Assembly: GCA_027486845.1 (NCBI GenBank)
Contig: JAIXOL010000024.1
Coordinates: forward strand, 62,001-126,000
Source of the DNA: Cytophagaceae bacterium
Lineage (GTDB): Bacteria > Bacteroidota > Bacteroidia > Cytophagales > Spirosomataceae
Length of the DNA stretch: 64,000 bases
Reading direction: 5' to 3'
Notes under the pieces: model-generated
Told to the model about the DNA's origin: nothing
Database searches by the model: none
The model's input: only the letters and a program-made list of their open reading frames with translations
Made by a program: the position numbers and the translations under genes
Shown: positions 55,956 to 64,000 of the stretch, piece after piece
Position numbering within the stretch: the stretch's first letter is position 1
Layout of the letters: every line of letters begins with the position of its first letter

Positions 55956-58172
55956 ATGGAACATATAGAAAATAATTTTATCGAAAAAGCCACATCTGGG
56001 GATTTAGGGGCTACCTCACGTCGCTCATTTATTAAAACTGGCTCACTTACGGGAGTCGGTTTGATGGTTGGGCTTAATTCTTTCGCTAAAGAAAAACATC
56101 CTAAAAAGATTTCTCATACCGACCCAAAATCGGCAGTTCTCGACCTAGAAATCAATCCTTTTATCATCATCAGCACCGATGGAAGCATTGCTTTGATTAA
56201 TCCTCGCCCCGATATGGGACAAGGCTCTACGCAAGCCGCACCTTCGTTGATTGCCGAAGAATTGGAAGTCAGTTTGGATAAAGTAAAACTCATCCAATCG
56301 GGTGGGCAAGAAAAATATGGTAGCCAACAATCGGGTGGAAGTAGCACTGTTCGTGGCTTGTGGACTTCGCTCCGCAAGGCTGGTGCAGCGGCCAAAGAAA
56401 TGCTTATCGAAACTGCCGCCAAACGCTGGAATGCCTCAATATCAGACTGTTACGCCCAAGAAGGCAAGATTTATTTGAAAAATTCTGATAAATCATTCTC
56501 TTTCGGCGAATTAGTTGATGATGCTTCAAAACTACAAGTTCCGAAAAATCCGAAACTCAAAGACCCGAAAGATTTCAAAATTTTGGGAAAATACAACAAA
56601 CGTCTTGATGTGCCTGAACGTGTTACAGGAAAAGCTGTTTACGGAATCGATATCGAAGTGCCAAACATGGTTTATGCATGTATGCAGCACTCGCCAACTA
56701 TTCACGGAAAAATCGTTTCTATTGATGATAGCGAAACGTTGAAAGTGAAAGGTGTTTTGCAGGTAATTAAAACCAAAAGACCAATGCCGCACCGTGGAGC
56801 AGATGCAGTTGCAGTAATTGCAACAAATTGGTGGGCAGCTCTCAAAGGTAGAAAAGCCTTGAAAGTTACATGGGATAACGGCGATTTAGCTAAAACCATG
56901 ACAACCGATAATTATTTTGCGGCAACTTACGAAGCTGCCAAAAAAGAAGGTATCAGATTCGAAGAAAAAGGCGATTTCAATGCGAAATTTGCTAATGCCA
57001 AGCAAAAACTGGAGTTTAATTACGAAACTCCATTTTTGGCTCATGCTCCAATCGAGCCAGAATGTGCGGTTGTGCATGTAAAAGATGATGGTACGGCCGA
57101 AGTTTGGGCACACGTACAAGGCCCAGATGGTGGCTTGGCCGATGTTTCGAGAGCATTGGGAATCAGCAAAGATAAAATCAAATTCAATGTTCCGTTGCTT
57201 GGTGGTTCGTTTGGTAGAAAAGCTTACCACGACTATTTGAACGAAACTTGTTTATTGGCAAAAGAATTGAAAAAGCCTGTAAAAATGATTTGGACGCGTG
57301 AAGATGATATTACGCAAGGGCCATATCGCCCAGGAATGCTGAGCCACATGCAGGGCTTTGTTGATAAAGGCAAAATCACTGGTTTTCATCACCACGCCAT
57401 TGGCGAATCAATTGTTGGTCAAGTATTTGGAGGTTTAGCTCCTGACGAATCTGACCCGTGGTTATCGGGTGAAATCAGCACTGAAAATAGCAAATATGAG
57501 TTTCCTGTTTCAAAAATTTCTTGGACAAACGTAAAAACTGAAATTCCTATCGTTTGGTGGCGTTCGGTTTATGCCTCAAATTTTGGTTGGGGACAAGAAT
57601 GTTTCATTGACGAATTAGCTCAGTTGGCAGGAAAAGACCCGCTACAAGCCCGTTTAGACTTAGTGAAAGATGCTCGCTACCGAAAAGTACTGGAAACAGT
57701 TTCCGAAAAAGCCAATTGGAAAGAAAAACTCGGAGCAGGACAAGGCAAAGGAATAGCCGTTTTTGCTTCGTTTGGTAGTATTTCAGCTTGTTGCATTACG
57801 GTTACAAAAGATGGAGCGGGTGTAAAAATCGACAAAGTTGTGTCGGTACTCGACTGCGGATATTATGTAAATCCTGACAACGTAAAAGCCCAAACTGAAG
57901 GAAATATTGTAATGGGTATTACAGCGGCAATCAAAGGTGGAATAACGTTTACAAATGGCGTTTGCGACCAAACCAATTTTCATCAGTACAACGTCATGCG
58001 ATTGAACGAGGCTCCAAAAATGGAAATTCATATTATTGACAGCGGCGAAAACCCTGGTGGAGTTGGCGAGCCTGGTTTACCGCCAATTGCCCCAGCACTC
58101 GGTAATGCGATTTTTGCAGCAACTGGCAAGAGAATCAGAAAATTACCTTTTGATATTGCTAATTTGGGGTAG
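55956..58172 (+). CDS. iorB: Molybdopterin-binding aldehyde/isoquinoline oxidoreductase large subunit
   Basis: Twin-arginine leader [107 protein letters not shown]. Confidence 0.95.
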   Translation: MEHIENNFIEKATSGDLGATSRRSFIKTGSLTGVGLMVGLNSFAKEKHPKKISHTDPKSAVLDLEINPFIIISTDGSIALINPRPDMGQGSTQAAPSLIAEELEVSLDKVKLIQSGGQEKYGSQQSGGSSTVRGLWTSLRKAGAAAKEMLIETAAKRWNASISDCYAQEGKIYLKNSDKSFSFGELVDDASKLQVPKNPKLKDPKDFKILGKYNKRLDVPERVTGKAVYGIDIEVPNMVYACMQHSPTIHGKIVSIDDSETLKVKGVLQVIKTKRPMPHRGADAVAVIATNWWAALKGRKALKVTWDNGDLAKTMTTDNYFAATYEAAKKEGIRFEEKGDFNAKFANAKQKLEFNYETPFLAHAPIEPECAVVHVKDDGTAEVWAHVQGPDGGLADVSRALGISKDKIKFNVPLLGGSFGRKAYHDYLNETCLLAKELKKPVKMIWTREDDITQGPYRPGMLSHMQGFVDKGKITGFHHHAIGESIVGQVFGGLAPDESDPWLSGEISTENSKYEFPVSKISWTNVKTEIPIVWWRSVYASNFGWGQECFIDELAQLAGKDPLQARLDLVKDARYRKVLETVSEKANWKEKLGAGQGKGIAVFASFGSISACCITVTKDGAGVKIDKVVSVLDCGYYVNPDNVKAQTEGNIVMGITAAIKGGITFTNGVCDQTNFHQYNVMRLNEAPKMEIHIIDSGENPGGVGEPGLPPIAPALGNAIFAATGKRIRKLPFDIANLG

Positions 58173-58195: not shown

Positions 58196-58417
58196 ATGAC
58201 TATAGATATAACACCCAAAAAAGGTATTAGTTACGTAACTAATAGTGCAGGAAAAAGAACTGCTTTGATGCTTGATCTCAAAAACAAAGTCATTCGTGAA
58301 TTAGCCGAGGATTTATTAGATAACTTAGCTATCATCGAACGTCAAAATGAAACAAGTCGTCCTTTTGAAGAGATTGATAGTGAAATTTTAGCTAAAATAG
58401 CTCGTAAAAATGGCTAA
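58196..58417 (+). CDS. Putative antitoxin of a RelE/ParE-type module
   Basis: 73-aa ORF overlapping the downstream toxin ORF by 8 nt. Confidence 0.65.
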   Translation: MTIDITPKKGISYVTNSAGKRTALMLDLKNKVIRELAEDLLDNLAIIERQNETSRPFEEIDSEILAKIARKNG

Positions 58418-58667
58418 ATATACAATTTCTATCAAGAAAAGTGCTGAAAAAGAATTAAAAAAACTATCAGCAGAGATGTATTTGAGAGTCAAAAAGGGTA
58501 TTTTAAATCTTGCCGAAAATCCTCGTCCAAATGGTTGTAAAAAGCTAAAAGGAAAAGAGTCGTATCGAATTCGTGAAGGAAATTTTAGAATCATTTATGA
58601 AATAGAAGACGATGTTTTAATTATTATGGTTGTTAAAATCGGGCATCGCAAAGAAGTGTATGATTAA
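58410..58667 (+). CDS. RelE/ParE-family toxin
   Basis: YTISIKKSAEKELKKLSAEMYLRVKKGILNLAENPRPNGCKKLKGKESYRIREGNFRIIYEIEDDVLIIMVVKIGHRKEVYD. Confidence 0.92.
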   Translation: MAKYTISIKKSAEKELKKLSAEMYLRVKKGILNLAENPRPNGCKKLKGKESYRIREGNFRIIYEIEDDVLIIMVVKIGHRKEVYD

Positions 58668-58703: not shown

Positions 58704-58745
58704 TAAGCGTCTAAGAATTATAAACTCTTAGACGCTGTTTTTTTG
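58704..58745 (+). terminator. Repeated terminator hairpin, copy T1
   Basis: aagcgtctaagaattataaactcttagacgctgttttttt; preceded by the small dyad GTAAC...GTTAC (58675-58691). Confidence 0.85.
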
Positions 58746-59269
58746 CCCTATGAATTTGAAATTGCTGTTTTAGAAATAGGACAATATCAATTGGCAAATT
58801 TGTGAACAGTTAAAAAGCTGATTATCAACTATTGATAACTTGGTGACTATCGTCCGAGGATTATTAAATAAATAATTTAACTTATAATAATTACTTGCGT
58901 ATAATTCGCACATTTGAAAATAAAACACAATTAGTTGCGTCTATTAACTTGTTGGTGGCTACGGCATATGAATACTAATCAAAATAAATTTGGAAAATAT
59001 GAACGCATAGGATTTAAGATAAATAATAATCTCATATTCAGAAGAAGAGGTAAAAAAATACTGAATGAAATTGAACTTAGAAGTGCTGCACTTTGTGGTC
59101 AAACATAATATCGCTTAAATTACAAACAGGACATTTATTGGAAACTCATACAAAAGTAGTTAGAAGAGCCTCTTGAAAATTTAGGACTGAAAATGTCATG
59201 AAATATATCACTATTAAATAATTTCTTGGTGATTAATTGGTAAAAGTGAATTTATATTAACTTTGCTTC

Positions 59270-60141: not shown

Positions 60142-60396
60142 ATTACGGCGGCAATCAAAGGTGGAATAATGTTTACAAATGGTGTTTGCGACCAAACTAA
60201 TTTTCATCAATACAACGTCATGCGATTGAATGAAGCTCCAAAAATGGAAATTCATATCATCGACAGCGGCGAAAACCCTGGTGGAGTTGGCGAGCCTGGT
60301 TTACCGCCAATTGCCCCAGCACTCGGTAATACGATTTTTGCAGCAACTGGCAAGAGAATCAGAAAATTACCTTTTGATATTGCTAATTTGGGGTAA
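60142..60396 (+). pseudogene. Duplicated 3' fragment of iorB
   Basis: 255 nt aligning without gaps to 57918-58172, with 10 differences counted by eye; encodes the same C-terminus ([42 protein letters not shown]). Confidence 0.95.
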
Positions 60397-60419
60397 TATT
60401 TTACAAATTATAAAAACCT

Positions 60420-60476
60420 GTTACTTCTTGTAACACTAAGCGTCTAAGAATTAAAAACTCTTAGACGCTTTTATTT
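60420..60476 (+). terminator. Repeated terminator hairpin, copy T2
   Basis: GTTAC-ttctt-GTAAC then aagcgtctaagaattaaaaactcttagacgcttttatttt. Confidence 0.8.
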
Positions 60477-60653
60477 TGCCCAATCAAAAAGAGAATTTTG
60501 ATGTTGCTGTTTAACTTACCTATTACTTGGCTTTTTGCTCAACAAAATTCAGAAGTAATTATATGAGTTATAGACGCTACTAAGATAAAGGATTCGTATA
60601 TTACTAAGTATGCACTAAAAAATGAAAAACGATTTCAAATTAAAGAATTTGAT

Positions 60654-60661
60654 TATATTTG
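60654..60661 (+). promoter_or_regulatory. Candidate Bacteroidota -7 box upstream of the RT leader
   Basis: TATATTTG matches TAnnTTTG; no convincing -33 element seen. Confidence 0.35.
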
Positions 60662-60664
60662 TAA

Positions 60665-60769
60665 CGAGTTTGAACTGTGAAACTGCGGTTCAGTATAATA
60701 TGAAAGGTAATTATTACACAGAAAGAGAAGTCGTACGGCTTCTCTTTTCCGTTTTAATCAATTTATAAA
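60665..60769 (+). ncRNA. Candidate structured leader / msr-msd-like RNA upstream of the RT
   Basis: Two hairpins: TGAACTG-8 nt-CGGTTCA (60671-60692) and AAAGAGAAG-tcgtacgg-CTTCTCTTT (60722-60747), ending directly before the GTG start; possible 7-bp a1/a2-like pairing TTGATTA (60649-60655) with TAATCAA (60755-60761). Confidence 0.35.
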
Positions 60770-62467
60770 GTGGGCGGAAAAAGACAACGTAGACAACAAG
60801 GTGAAAGAATAAAAAGGGCAAATCAAAAATTGACGAAAGAACAAATCGAGATTGCTTTAAATAGTTTTTATTCAATTAAAACCCCAAAAGAGTTATGCGA
60901 ATTACTTAACATTTCGTATGATAGATTATTATCGGTATTTTTCTCTAAATATAATTCTTTTAAAATACTCAAAAAAGGAAAAGAAAGAGAAATTCAAAAA
61001 CCTGATGTTTTACTTTTGGAAGTTCAAATTAGATTGTCTTATTTTCTGAATTGTGCATATATAAATACAATAAATAGTAGAGATATTCATAATTCCTATG
61101 CTTACATACCAGCATTAAAGGAAAATACTTCAAAAAATTCGGTTAAAAATATTGTTAGTAACGCAAATAATCACACAAATAAAAAACTCGTTGCTAATCT
61201 TGATTTAGTAAATTTTTTCAATTCTATTCATAAATCAAAAATAGTAGATTTATTTAAAAATGAACCATTTAATTTCAATAATGAGTTAATTGATTTTATT
61301 GCAGAGATTGTAACAAATGATAATAGTTTACCTGTTGGTGCAGCAACTTCGCCAATATTATCAAATTTTATAATGCTTGAAATTGATGAACAATTCCAAA
61401 AAATACCAAATATTATTTATTCGAGATTTTCCGATGATTTAACCTTTTCAACAGATTTTTATTCAATTTCTGAATTTGAAAATATACTATCTTTTGTTAT
61501 TAAAATTATCGATAATAGTGGATTTGAAATTAATTATTCAAAAAAGACGATTAAAAAATCTACTCAGAAACAGATTGTTACAGGTATTATTGTAAATAAA
61601 AAAGCAAATGTTGACAGAAAATATATTAGAAATATTCGTGCAATTTTACATTCAATAACTACGATTGGTTGGTTAGAAGCTGGTGAGAAATATGTTGAGC
61701 TTAATAAAAGTAAATTTTTAAGAGCAATAAGGAACTATTTCAAAACAGAGAATAATTGGATTTTATCTGATGAAATTATTGATACTCATGTTACGTATAG
61801 TAAGGAATGGTATTTTAATAAGTCATTGAGAGCAAAAATTGAACACATAGGTTATGTTAAAGGTAAAGACGATGATATTTATAGAAACTTATTGCAAACT
61901 TATTTAAACCTAATTGAATCTAACGGGATAATGATAAGAGTTTCACCCAAATTATCTTTAATTAATGATATTGTATTTGTTACGAATGCAACTGCAAATT
62001 CAATTGTTTTTTATGCTTATTCATTTTTAAAGAATTGTGGATTAAACGATTTTGAAATAAGTGATTTAAGAAGTAAATTTTATTTCAATGGGTCTAATAA
62101 AATATCTTATGAAGAGATTTTGAGAAATTTTCAAAATCAAAGTGCTTATTTTATGAATTTATTTACATTTATGACCAATTACGATAGATTTGAAAGTTTT
62201 GTGACAGAAATTGAAAATCAAAATAGATTTCATAAAATATTCAAAAATTATGGTAACTCACTTGAATTAATAAGACAGTATAATAGAAGAATATATCATG
62301 CTAATATTGAATGTGAGTATTTAAGGAATGATTTTAACGAAGGTGACAAATATTTCAAAAATACAGGAGTTTTTTTTGAGGAAAACAAAGAAATGAAACA
62401 AAAATATTATGTCTTAAAACGTTCGTTTTTAGATGTATTAAAAATGAGAAAATGTGAAAAATGCTAA
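60770..62467 (+). CDS. Retron-like reverse transcriptase with C-terminal extension (565 aa, GTG start)
   Basis: NANNH in SNANNHTNKKLVANLDLVNFFNSI; LPVGAATSPILSNFIM; catalytic YSRFSDDLTFS; VTGIIVNKKANVDRKYIRNIRAILH; thumb-like SLRAKIEHIGYVKGKDDDIYRNLLQTYLNL; then about 170 aa of unrecognised sequence. Confidence 0.88.
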   Translation: MGGKRQRRQQGERIKRANQKLTKEQIEIALNSFYSIKTPKELCELLNISYDRLLSVFFSKYNSFKILKKGKEREIQKPDVLLLEVQIRLSYFLNCAYINTINSRDIHNSYAYIPALKENTSKNSVKNIVSNANNHTNKKLVANLDLVNFFNSIHKSKIVDLFKNEPFNFNNELIDFIAEIVTNDNSLPVGAATSPILSNFIMLEIDEQFQKIPNIIYSRFSDDLTFSTDFYSISEFENILSFVIKIIDNSGFEINYSKKTIKKSTQKQIVTGIIVNKKANVDRKYIRNIRAILHSITTIGWLEAGEKYVELNKSKFLRAIRNYFKTENNWILSDEIIDTHVTYSKEWYFNKSLRAKIEHIGYVKGKDDDIYRNLLQTYLNLIESNGIMIRVSPKLSLINDIVFVTNATANSIVFYAYSFLKNCGLNDFEISDLRSKFYFNGSNKISYEEILRNFQNQSAYFMNLFTFMTNYDRFESFVTEIENQNRFHKIFKNYGNSLELIRQYNRRIYHANIECEYLRNDFNEGDKYFKNTGVFFEENKEMKQKYYVLKRSFLDVLKMRKCEKC

Positions 62468-62671
62468 AAAAGTACATAATGTTCAATAATTACGGGCTTT
62501 TTTGTTAGGTTGAAACAGTTTAAAAAATGGTCTCACAAATTGAAACGGTAGTGCCTTGAAATCCCGCAAAATATGCATTTTGTTTTTCGTTATATGCCAT
62601 TCTGAAACCTCAATTAATTAGATTTAACTTGACGACATCTGAACAATATTTCGTAAATTATAGAAATATCC

Positions 62672-62729
62672 GTTACTTCTTGTAACACTAAGCGTCTAAG
62701 AATTAAAAACTCTTAGACGCTGTTTTTTT
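62672..62729 (+). terminator. Repeated terminator hairpin, copy T3
   Basis: GTTAC-ttctt-GTAAC then aagcgtctaagaattaaaaactcttagacgctgttttttt. Confidence 0.85.
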
Positions 62730-62987
62730 CCTTATGAATTTGAAATGGCTGTCTAAGAAATAGGATAATATCAATTGGCAAATTGGCAAACAGCTAAATA
62801 GCTGACTATAAGCCATTTATCTTTATATAGACTTGGTGATTATTGACAGTGGAATGTGTGATAAATAAAATTTACTTGAAATAATTGCTAGCTGTAATTT
62901 ACATATTTGAAAAATTAAACGCAATAAGTTGTATCTATGTACTCGTGGCATGCAACCCTAATTGTGACCAAGACCATTTGGACAGAC

Positions 62988-63342: not shown

Positions 63343-64000
63343 TTACTCGAATCTCTCAAACCATTCTTCATCGACTGATACTTTTTCAACAATTTCTAAT
63401 TTTACTCCTAAATTTAACTCTTTTAATTTTTCAGCTAATTTATTCCCATCAATTAAATCAATTGTTGGTGCACCATCTCTTGTAGCTTCTGCCAAGGCGT
63501 TGTGTGTAAAATTTCCAGTCGTAATAAATAACCCTTTATCAGTTCTACCAGCCATTGCACCTCTAAAATCTCTAATTTCTTTAGAAGAAACTTTACCCAC
63601 ATATCTTTTACATTGAATAATGATATGAAAACTTAAAATCCCATTAATTTTTGCAATTCCTCGCAAATCAATTCCCCCATCATTACTACGCCCAGTAACT
63701 TCAACTTGTTCAAAGCCTTTTTCACGTAGAAATCTTTGAATTAATCTTTCAAATCCACTTGGGGTTACTTTATTTAAAATTACTGATATGATTTTTTCTT
63801 TCCAGTTTTCTTCGTCCTCTAATTGTTGATTAATTCTATCAATAAGAGTTTTATCACCTCCCTTTCTAAGTAAAAATTGCACATCATCCATATTGATGAT
63901 AGACCAAACTCCTCTTTGAGAATTTTCTATCGAACCTTGATTTTTCAACATAGTCCGAACCCAAGCTAACTGATAAGACAATTCAGTTTGTAATGTATCT
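63343..64000 (-). CDS. mrr: Mrr-like restriction endonuclease, 5' end outside window
   Basis: GFERLIQRFLREKGFEQVEVTGRSNDGGIDLRGIAKINGILSFHIIIQCKRYVGKVSSKEIRDFRGAMAGRTDKGLFITTGNFTHNA PD-(D/E)XK core; frame open to 64000. Confidence 0.92.
   Translation of the reverse strand, partial: DTLQTELSYQLAWVRTMLKNQGSIENSQRGVWSIINMDDVQFLLRKGGDKTLIDRINQQLEDEENWKEKIISVILNKVTPSGFERLIQRFLREKGFEQVEVTGRSNDGGIDLRGIAKINGILSFHIIIQCKRYVGKVSSKEIRDFRGAMAGRTDKGLFITTGNFTHNALAEATRDGAPTIDLIDGNKLAEKLKELNLGVKLEIVEKVSVDEEWFERFE

Follow-up and report, generated by a model that had tools for sequence, protein, structure and literature searches.

What does a reverse transcriptase (RT) do when it ends in an extension that resembles nothing known and has no partner gene beside it? 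Retrons consist of an RT and a small RNA and normally serve as an anti-virus alarm; a retron's type is set by its effector, and the single-gene retrons are the least understood. One open reading frame near the end of the window (the whole stretch of 64,000 nucleotides analysed here, from a Cytophagaceae bacterium) was originally predicted to encode a retron-like RT whose C-terminal extension might itself be the effector. The features on which the present analysis rests are collected in Table 1.

Table 1. Coordinates of the features in the window and in the related two-gene cassettes
Feature	Position	Strand	Basis or remark
Low-GC cassette, ncRNA and single gene	60478..62644	+	Bounded by direct repeat
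Retron RT with fused C-terminal domain	60770..62467	+	ORF, 565 aa; GTG start uncertain
RT domain with its thumb (residues about 30-384)	60857..61921	+	PADLOC/PDB matches, junction alignment
Window junction KIEHIGYVKGKDDDIYRNLLQTYLNL	residues 356-381		End of RT domain; junction alignment
Novel C-terminal domain, proposed effector, residues 396-565	61955..62464	+	No family or fold match; RT-less homologues
Predicted retron ncRNA (msr-msd)	60646..60764	+	Between a1/a2 repeats; folds better than shuffles
msr segment	60660..60697	+	Conserved hairpin GAACUG-UGAAACUG-CGGUUC at 60672-60691
Predicted msd hairpin, 13-bp arms AAAGAGAAGTCGT/ACGGCTTCTCTTT	60722..60747	+	Inverted repeat, folding
Two-gene cassettes	L053:5165-6513, L006:287-1626, L054:5117-6510		Stop and start overlapping

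The reverse transcriptase and its relatives

All of the motifs named in the original prediction were located in the 565-aa protein: NANNH at residues 131-135, GAATSPILSN at 190-199, FSDD at 220-223 and QIVTGIIVN at 268-276. The protein matches the Pfam family RVT_1 (E = 2.4e-17), and it is a retron-family RT with NAxxH (region X), VTG (region Y) and an intact DD. The FSDD box, which had been put forward as non-canonical, is indeed present, but is hardly unusual: in a set of 46 related RTs this motif reads YADD in 38, FADD in three, YVDD in two, and YSDD, FVDD and FSDD in one each, the single FSDD being that of the window RT. Because each substitution is found in other RTs and both catalytic aspartates are retained, FSDD represents a mild variant.

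HMM searches and phylogeny both placed the protein with the retron RTs that carry fused effectors, away from the RTs of group II introns and CRISPR systems, as had been predicted. The best PADLOC retron RT models were RT-Protease_XI (E = 3.9e-75, over residues 31-406), RT-Toprim_I-C (E = 1.2e-68) and RT-TIR_XII (E = 1.9e-67), and the nearest solved chain in a PDB search was that of the retron Ec67/Eco2 (E = 1.4e-27). In a maximum-likelihood tree of the RT and thumb (46 rows, 395 columns), the window RT lies inside a set with SH-aLRT 100 that also contains RT-Toprim, RT-trypsin, RT-TIR, RT-AAA and RT-Mrr proteins. The tree gives it no exact position within this set, and its end branch is long (1.44).

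The members of the set and the window RT have a common segment after VTG, a common thumb and a common junction, GK(I/L)xxxGxVKGKxDxxYxxxxxxxxxL, which in the window reads AKIEHIGYVKGKDDDIYRNLLQTYLNL and has residue 381 as its last. The tails found after this junction are Trypsin_2 (L061, L064), AAA_5 (L063), TIR_2 (L058), Mrr_cat (L005) and a HisKin-conflict domain (L016), all by Pfam, and Toprim-type tails in L007, L062, L068 and L069 (by Ec67 family annotation or judged by eye). The C-terminal domain of the window protein occupies exactly the place of these effectors. Types XI (RT-trypsin) and XII (RT-TIR), which gave the best RT profiles, resemble it in the junction GKIxxxGxVKGKxDxxY and in the thumb; in the window, however, the protease or TIR is replaced by a new domain, and the matches to these types stop at residues 388-424.

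At L005:790-2385 (minus strand), an RT of the retron group carries a nuclease of the Mrr type (PF04471, E = 2.8e-6) as a fusion and is preceded by the same msr hairpin as the window RT; this effector fusion is absent from the PADLOC retron list shown. At L016:1156-3168 (plus strand), an RT of the same group is fused to the HisKin-conflict domain (PF22561, E = 2e-65), and L040 and L020 encode RTs of the same kind with long C-terminal regions of no assigned family.

The predicted upstream RNA and the limits of the cassette

A structured msr-msd ncRNA with a group-specific msr hairpin is predicted directly upstream of the RT gene. The region folds more stably than its shuffled versions (z = -3.1 for 60640-60769 and -3.7 for 60649-60762). 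The presumed a1 and a2 repeats, TTGATTA at 60649-60655 and TAATCAA at 60755-60761, pair in the centroid fold over 7 perfect bp (or 9 of 10 with one mismatch), a pairing so short that it could be due to chance and is weak by itself. The msr hairpin, 98 bp upstream of the RT gene, is conserved: an upstream hairpin of 6 bp with a loop of 8-9 nt, usually preceded by ATTT, was found in 12 related loci. When the window was left out, 98.5% of the cells in the remaining 11 loci were able to pair, five of the six pairs exhibited changes on both sides, and the covariation score was reached by none of 500 shuffles.

A covariance model (R1) built from these 11 loci found the window hairpin as its best match in the 661-nt upstream region (15.0 bits, E = 0.0054; next match, 7.1 bits). 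Across the full 64 kb the E-value is 0.52 and the window hairpin is one among several equal scores, as expected for so short a model. The strict hairpin pattern is unique in the 64-kb window, the pattern having been written after the window copy was seen. A search of the upstream region against Rfam gave no match. The hairpin with 13-bp arms downstream of the msr is likely the msd stem. The msr of Eco2 is a single stem-loop that begins 4 nt past the branching guanosine, G15 (PMC12405507); by such a layout, G60666 (or G60668) is the candidate branching guanosine in the window.

The cassette has a GC content of 25.7%, against 35.6% for the window, and is flanked by a direct repeat (60395-60477 and 62645-62729; 83 and 85 bp, 88% identical) that includes the terminator of the upstream oxidoreductase gene. 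Since this insert holds the predicted ncRNA and the RT gene only, no partner is encoded in it; the direct repeats leave no room for one, as the original prediction had supposed. One of the closest known systems is Eco2/Ec67 (type I-C, RT-Toprim), likewise a single gene with a homologous RT, a fusion at the effector position after the thumb, no partner, and one msr stem-loop shortly after the branching guanosine. It differs from the window system in that the C-terminal domain of the latter is unrelated to Toprim, the RT identity is only about 35%, the msr stem and loop have other sequences, and the a1/a2 repeats of the window are much shorter.

The C-terminal domain and its RT-less relatives

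The original prediction counted about 170 unrecognised residues at the C-terminus. No match to a known effector was found by sequence or fold, and the start has been moved to near residue 396-403, right after the thumb, which leaves about 165 aa. Residues 385-565 matched no family in Pfam, NCBIfam or PADLOC, and without a Toprim, trypsin-like or TIR match the protein cannot be filed under types I-C, XI or XII. The alignment of the PADLOC RT-Toprim_I-C model (PDLC02965) did extend to residue 544; since the C-terminal part by itself had no PADLOC match, Toprim was rejected. Scans of all seven domain members against Pfam, PHROGs and PADLOC gave no consistent family; the scattered Pfam and PHROG matches differ from member to member and were dismissed, as was a weak match to Hfq (E = 0.37) that is inconsistent between members. 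A PDB profile search with the domain gave no match. An AlphaFold2 model based on the 7-row alignment reached pLDDT 73 and pTM 0.73, the best of the five predictions standing well above the rest, and Foldseek found no fold match for it in the PDB (best E = 1.8) or BFVD (best E = 1.4). As the model is of medium confidence, this lack of a known fold is moderate evidence only.

Homologues of the domain, 31-48% identical to that of the window and devoid of RT, were recovered by the domain profile only; a search with the full-length protein returned nothing from the genome contigs and viral contigs. Three of them lie in two-gene cassettes, in the Bacteroidetes MAG SZAS-91 (L006/L052), Tenacibaculum piscium (L053) and a Flavobacteriales MAG (L054), and the others in three species of Pontibacter (L055-L057), where the domain lies at the C-terminal end of a protein of 333-335 aa. 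The Pontibacter domain is 31% identical to that of the window over 178 aa, but follows a different, 135-aa N-terminal region, and neither an RT nor an NYN neighbour was seen beside it. In the two-gene cassettes, the second gene (251-254 aa) carries the same domain (48% identical over 166 aa), but with an 84-aa region before it, an NYN-fold gene as neighbour and no RT.

The first gene of these cassettes is a distant relative of DUF6621 (24% identity to a Bacteroides protein, E = 2e-6). Its model (pLDDT 88.9) has its best fold matches in 2qip, the MARF1 NYN domain and Rae1/YacP; we take 2qip and Rae1 to be NYN/PIN-like. The MARF1 match (probability 0.99, TM 0.53/0.66) has an E-value of 0.023 and is not significant at 1e-3; the model is suggestive of an NYN-like protein with an RNase fold. 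With such a partner, the C-terminal domain may work in a setting connected with RNA, and the two-gene cassette is a candidate defence or toxin system. Directly upstream of the cassette in L053 lies an AlbA_2/Schlafen-like gene, and the Pontibacter domain proteins (L055-L057:5593-6600) are divergent from a CoiA-like gene (both judged by eye).

The invariant residues of the family include T405, N406, R434, Q457, S458, N463, DRFE at 472-475, R506, H510, C515, D521, E524, N531, T532, C562 and C565, of which H510, C515, C562 and C565 probably form a zinc site. The family is rare: it was found in two of the 396 sampled Bacteroidota genomes, the window's genome included, and in one of the 151 genomes of the window's own taxonomic family, and no relatives were found in the plasmid, phage or viral contig collections. 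A further weak genomic match (L072, E = 5e-4) was discarded because its reading frame is unrelated and interrupted by stops. The fusion to an RT was found once, in the window's genome, every other homologue being without one. Judged from these homologues, the domain represents a real, mobile module family.

Possible function and genomic surroundings

The reading that we consider probable is that of a single-gene retron in which damage by phage to the msDNA or its complex would free the fused C-terminal domain as a toxic effector. The folded upstream ncRNA (about 60646-60764) would be bound by the RT domain, which would prime from a guanosine immediately ahead of the msr hairpin and copy the msd into branched msDNA. 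The C-terminal domain would be kept inactive by the RT and msDNA until an infecting phage damages or modifies the msDNA or the complex; once released, it would stop the cell (abortive infection) as a toxic effector in the manner of the RT-Toprim fusion Eco2. The full-length RT-Toprim of Eco2, together with its msDNA, inhibits itself and is not toxic, while the Toprim part on its own is a toxic RNase (PMC12405507); the trigger is DenB, a phage nuclease. Position and modularity are the grounds on which we infer that the domain is an effector and propose an Eco2-like logic with a new output domain. This favours the extension as the effector of a one-gene system, as originally suggested; no known retron effector was recognised in it, and its homologues require no separate known effector. 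Since relatives of the domain also occur without an RT, it probably represents a novel kind of output module in virus defence. From the probable H/C/C/C zinc site and the NYN-like protein of the two-gene cousins, its most likely activity would, very tentatively, be that of a zinc-containing enzyme or binder that acts on RNA or the translation machinery.

Because the domain has no recognised catalytic signature, it could also be a sensor, scaffold or regulator. It might thus serve in regulation, oligomerisation or nucleic-acid binding, the effector being elsewhere or the RT product itself acting, and the NYN-fold protein paired with it in three cassettes, itself a possible nuclease, fits this idea. 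We regard it as rather unlikely, since the domain sits exactly where related RTs have TIR, Toprim, protease, Mrr or AAA domains and is the one element common to three architectures, while the window cassette contains no other gene and the Pontibacter domain has no NYN neighbour.

Much less credible is the idea that the retron has decayed or is a chimera, in which an RT became linked to a foreign domain by accident and lost its function. The single occurrence of the fusion, the long RT branch, and the rearrangement indicated by the flanking duplications and a nearby transposase could be explained in this way, but 565 codons have stayed open at 24% GC with every RT motif intact and both DD kept, the invariant C-terminal residues are retained against homologues at 31-48% identity, and the msr hairpin is preserved. 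Another class of RT (group II maturase, DRT, Abi or CRISPR-associated) has next to no probability and is refuted at the sequence level: in NCBIfam, Drt3a (1.4e-11) and the group II maturase (4.6e-10) match weakly, as expected of any RT, and the retron models are better by 40-65 orders of magnitude; NAxxH, VTG and the msr hairpin are present, and cas1 and a maturase domain are absent.

A family that has no counterpart in Pfam, NCBIfam, PADLOC or the PDB occupies an effector position on a retron RT and recurs in RT-less cassettes. A stronger claim, to which we give somewhat less than even weight, is that the domain is a toxic effector with a fold and chemistry new to defence, set on at least three Bacteroidota sensor heads; these might, with the same reserve, be the retron RT, the two-gene cassette with the NYN protein, and another, third domain at the N-terminus. 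If true, this would establish both a new type of retron and a new family of modular effectors in defence. For seeking a new toxic activity there are a short list of residues (the eight invariant ones listed from H510 onwards) and three natural contexts, and the cassette, which comprises a single gene and its ncRNA in about 2.1 kb, is easily cloned and tested.

The oxidoreductase gene upstream of the cassette (aldehyde/xanthine-oxidase-like) has its 3' end duplicated (57918-58171 and 60142-60395, 96%), a further repeated pair lies at 58704-58952 and 62689-62946, and copies of the terminator are found at 58704, 60437 and 62689. This gene end with its terminator is repeated around successive inserts, namely a toxin-antitoxin pair, a PDDEXK transposase and the retron, as if it were a repeated integration site. 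The RelE-like toxin-antitoxin pair and the transposase are inserts similar to the retron cassette and adjacent to it; the former consists of two small ORFs (73 and 85 aa) at 58196-58667 and is RelB/RelE-type as judged by eye. An Mrr-type restriction endonuclease (PF04471, E = 2.9e-31; 268 aa in full) is encoded in the opposite orientation at 63343-64000, 0.7 kb past the downstream end of the cassette, and continues in L073 to 6149.
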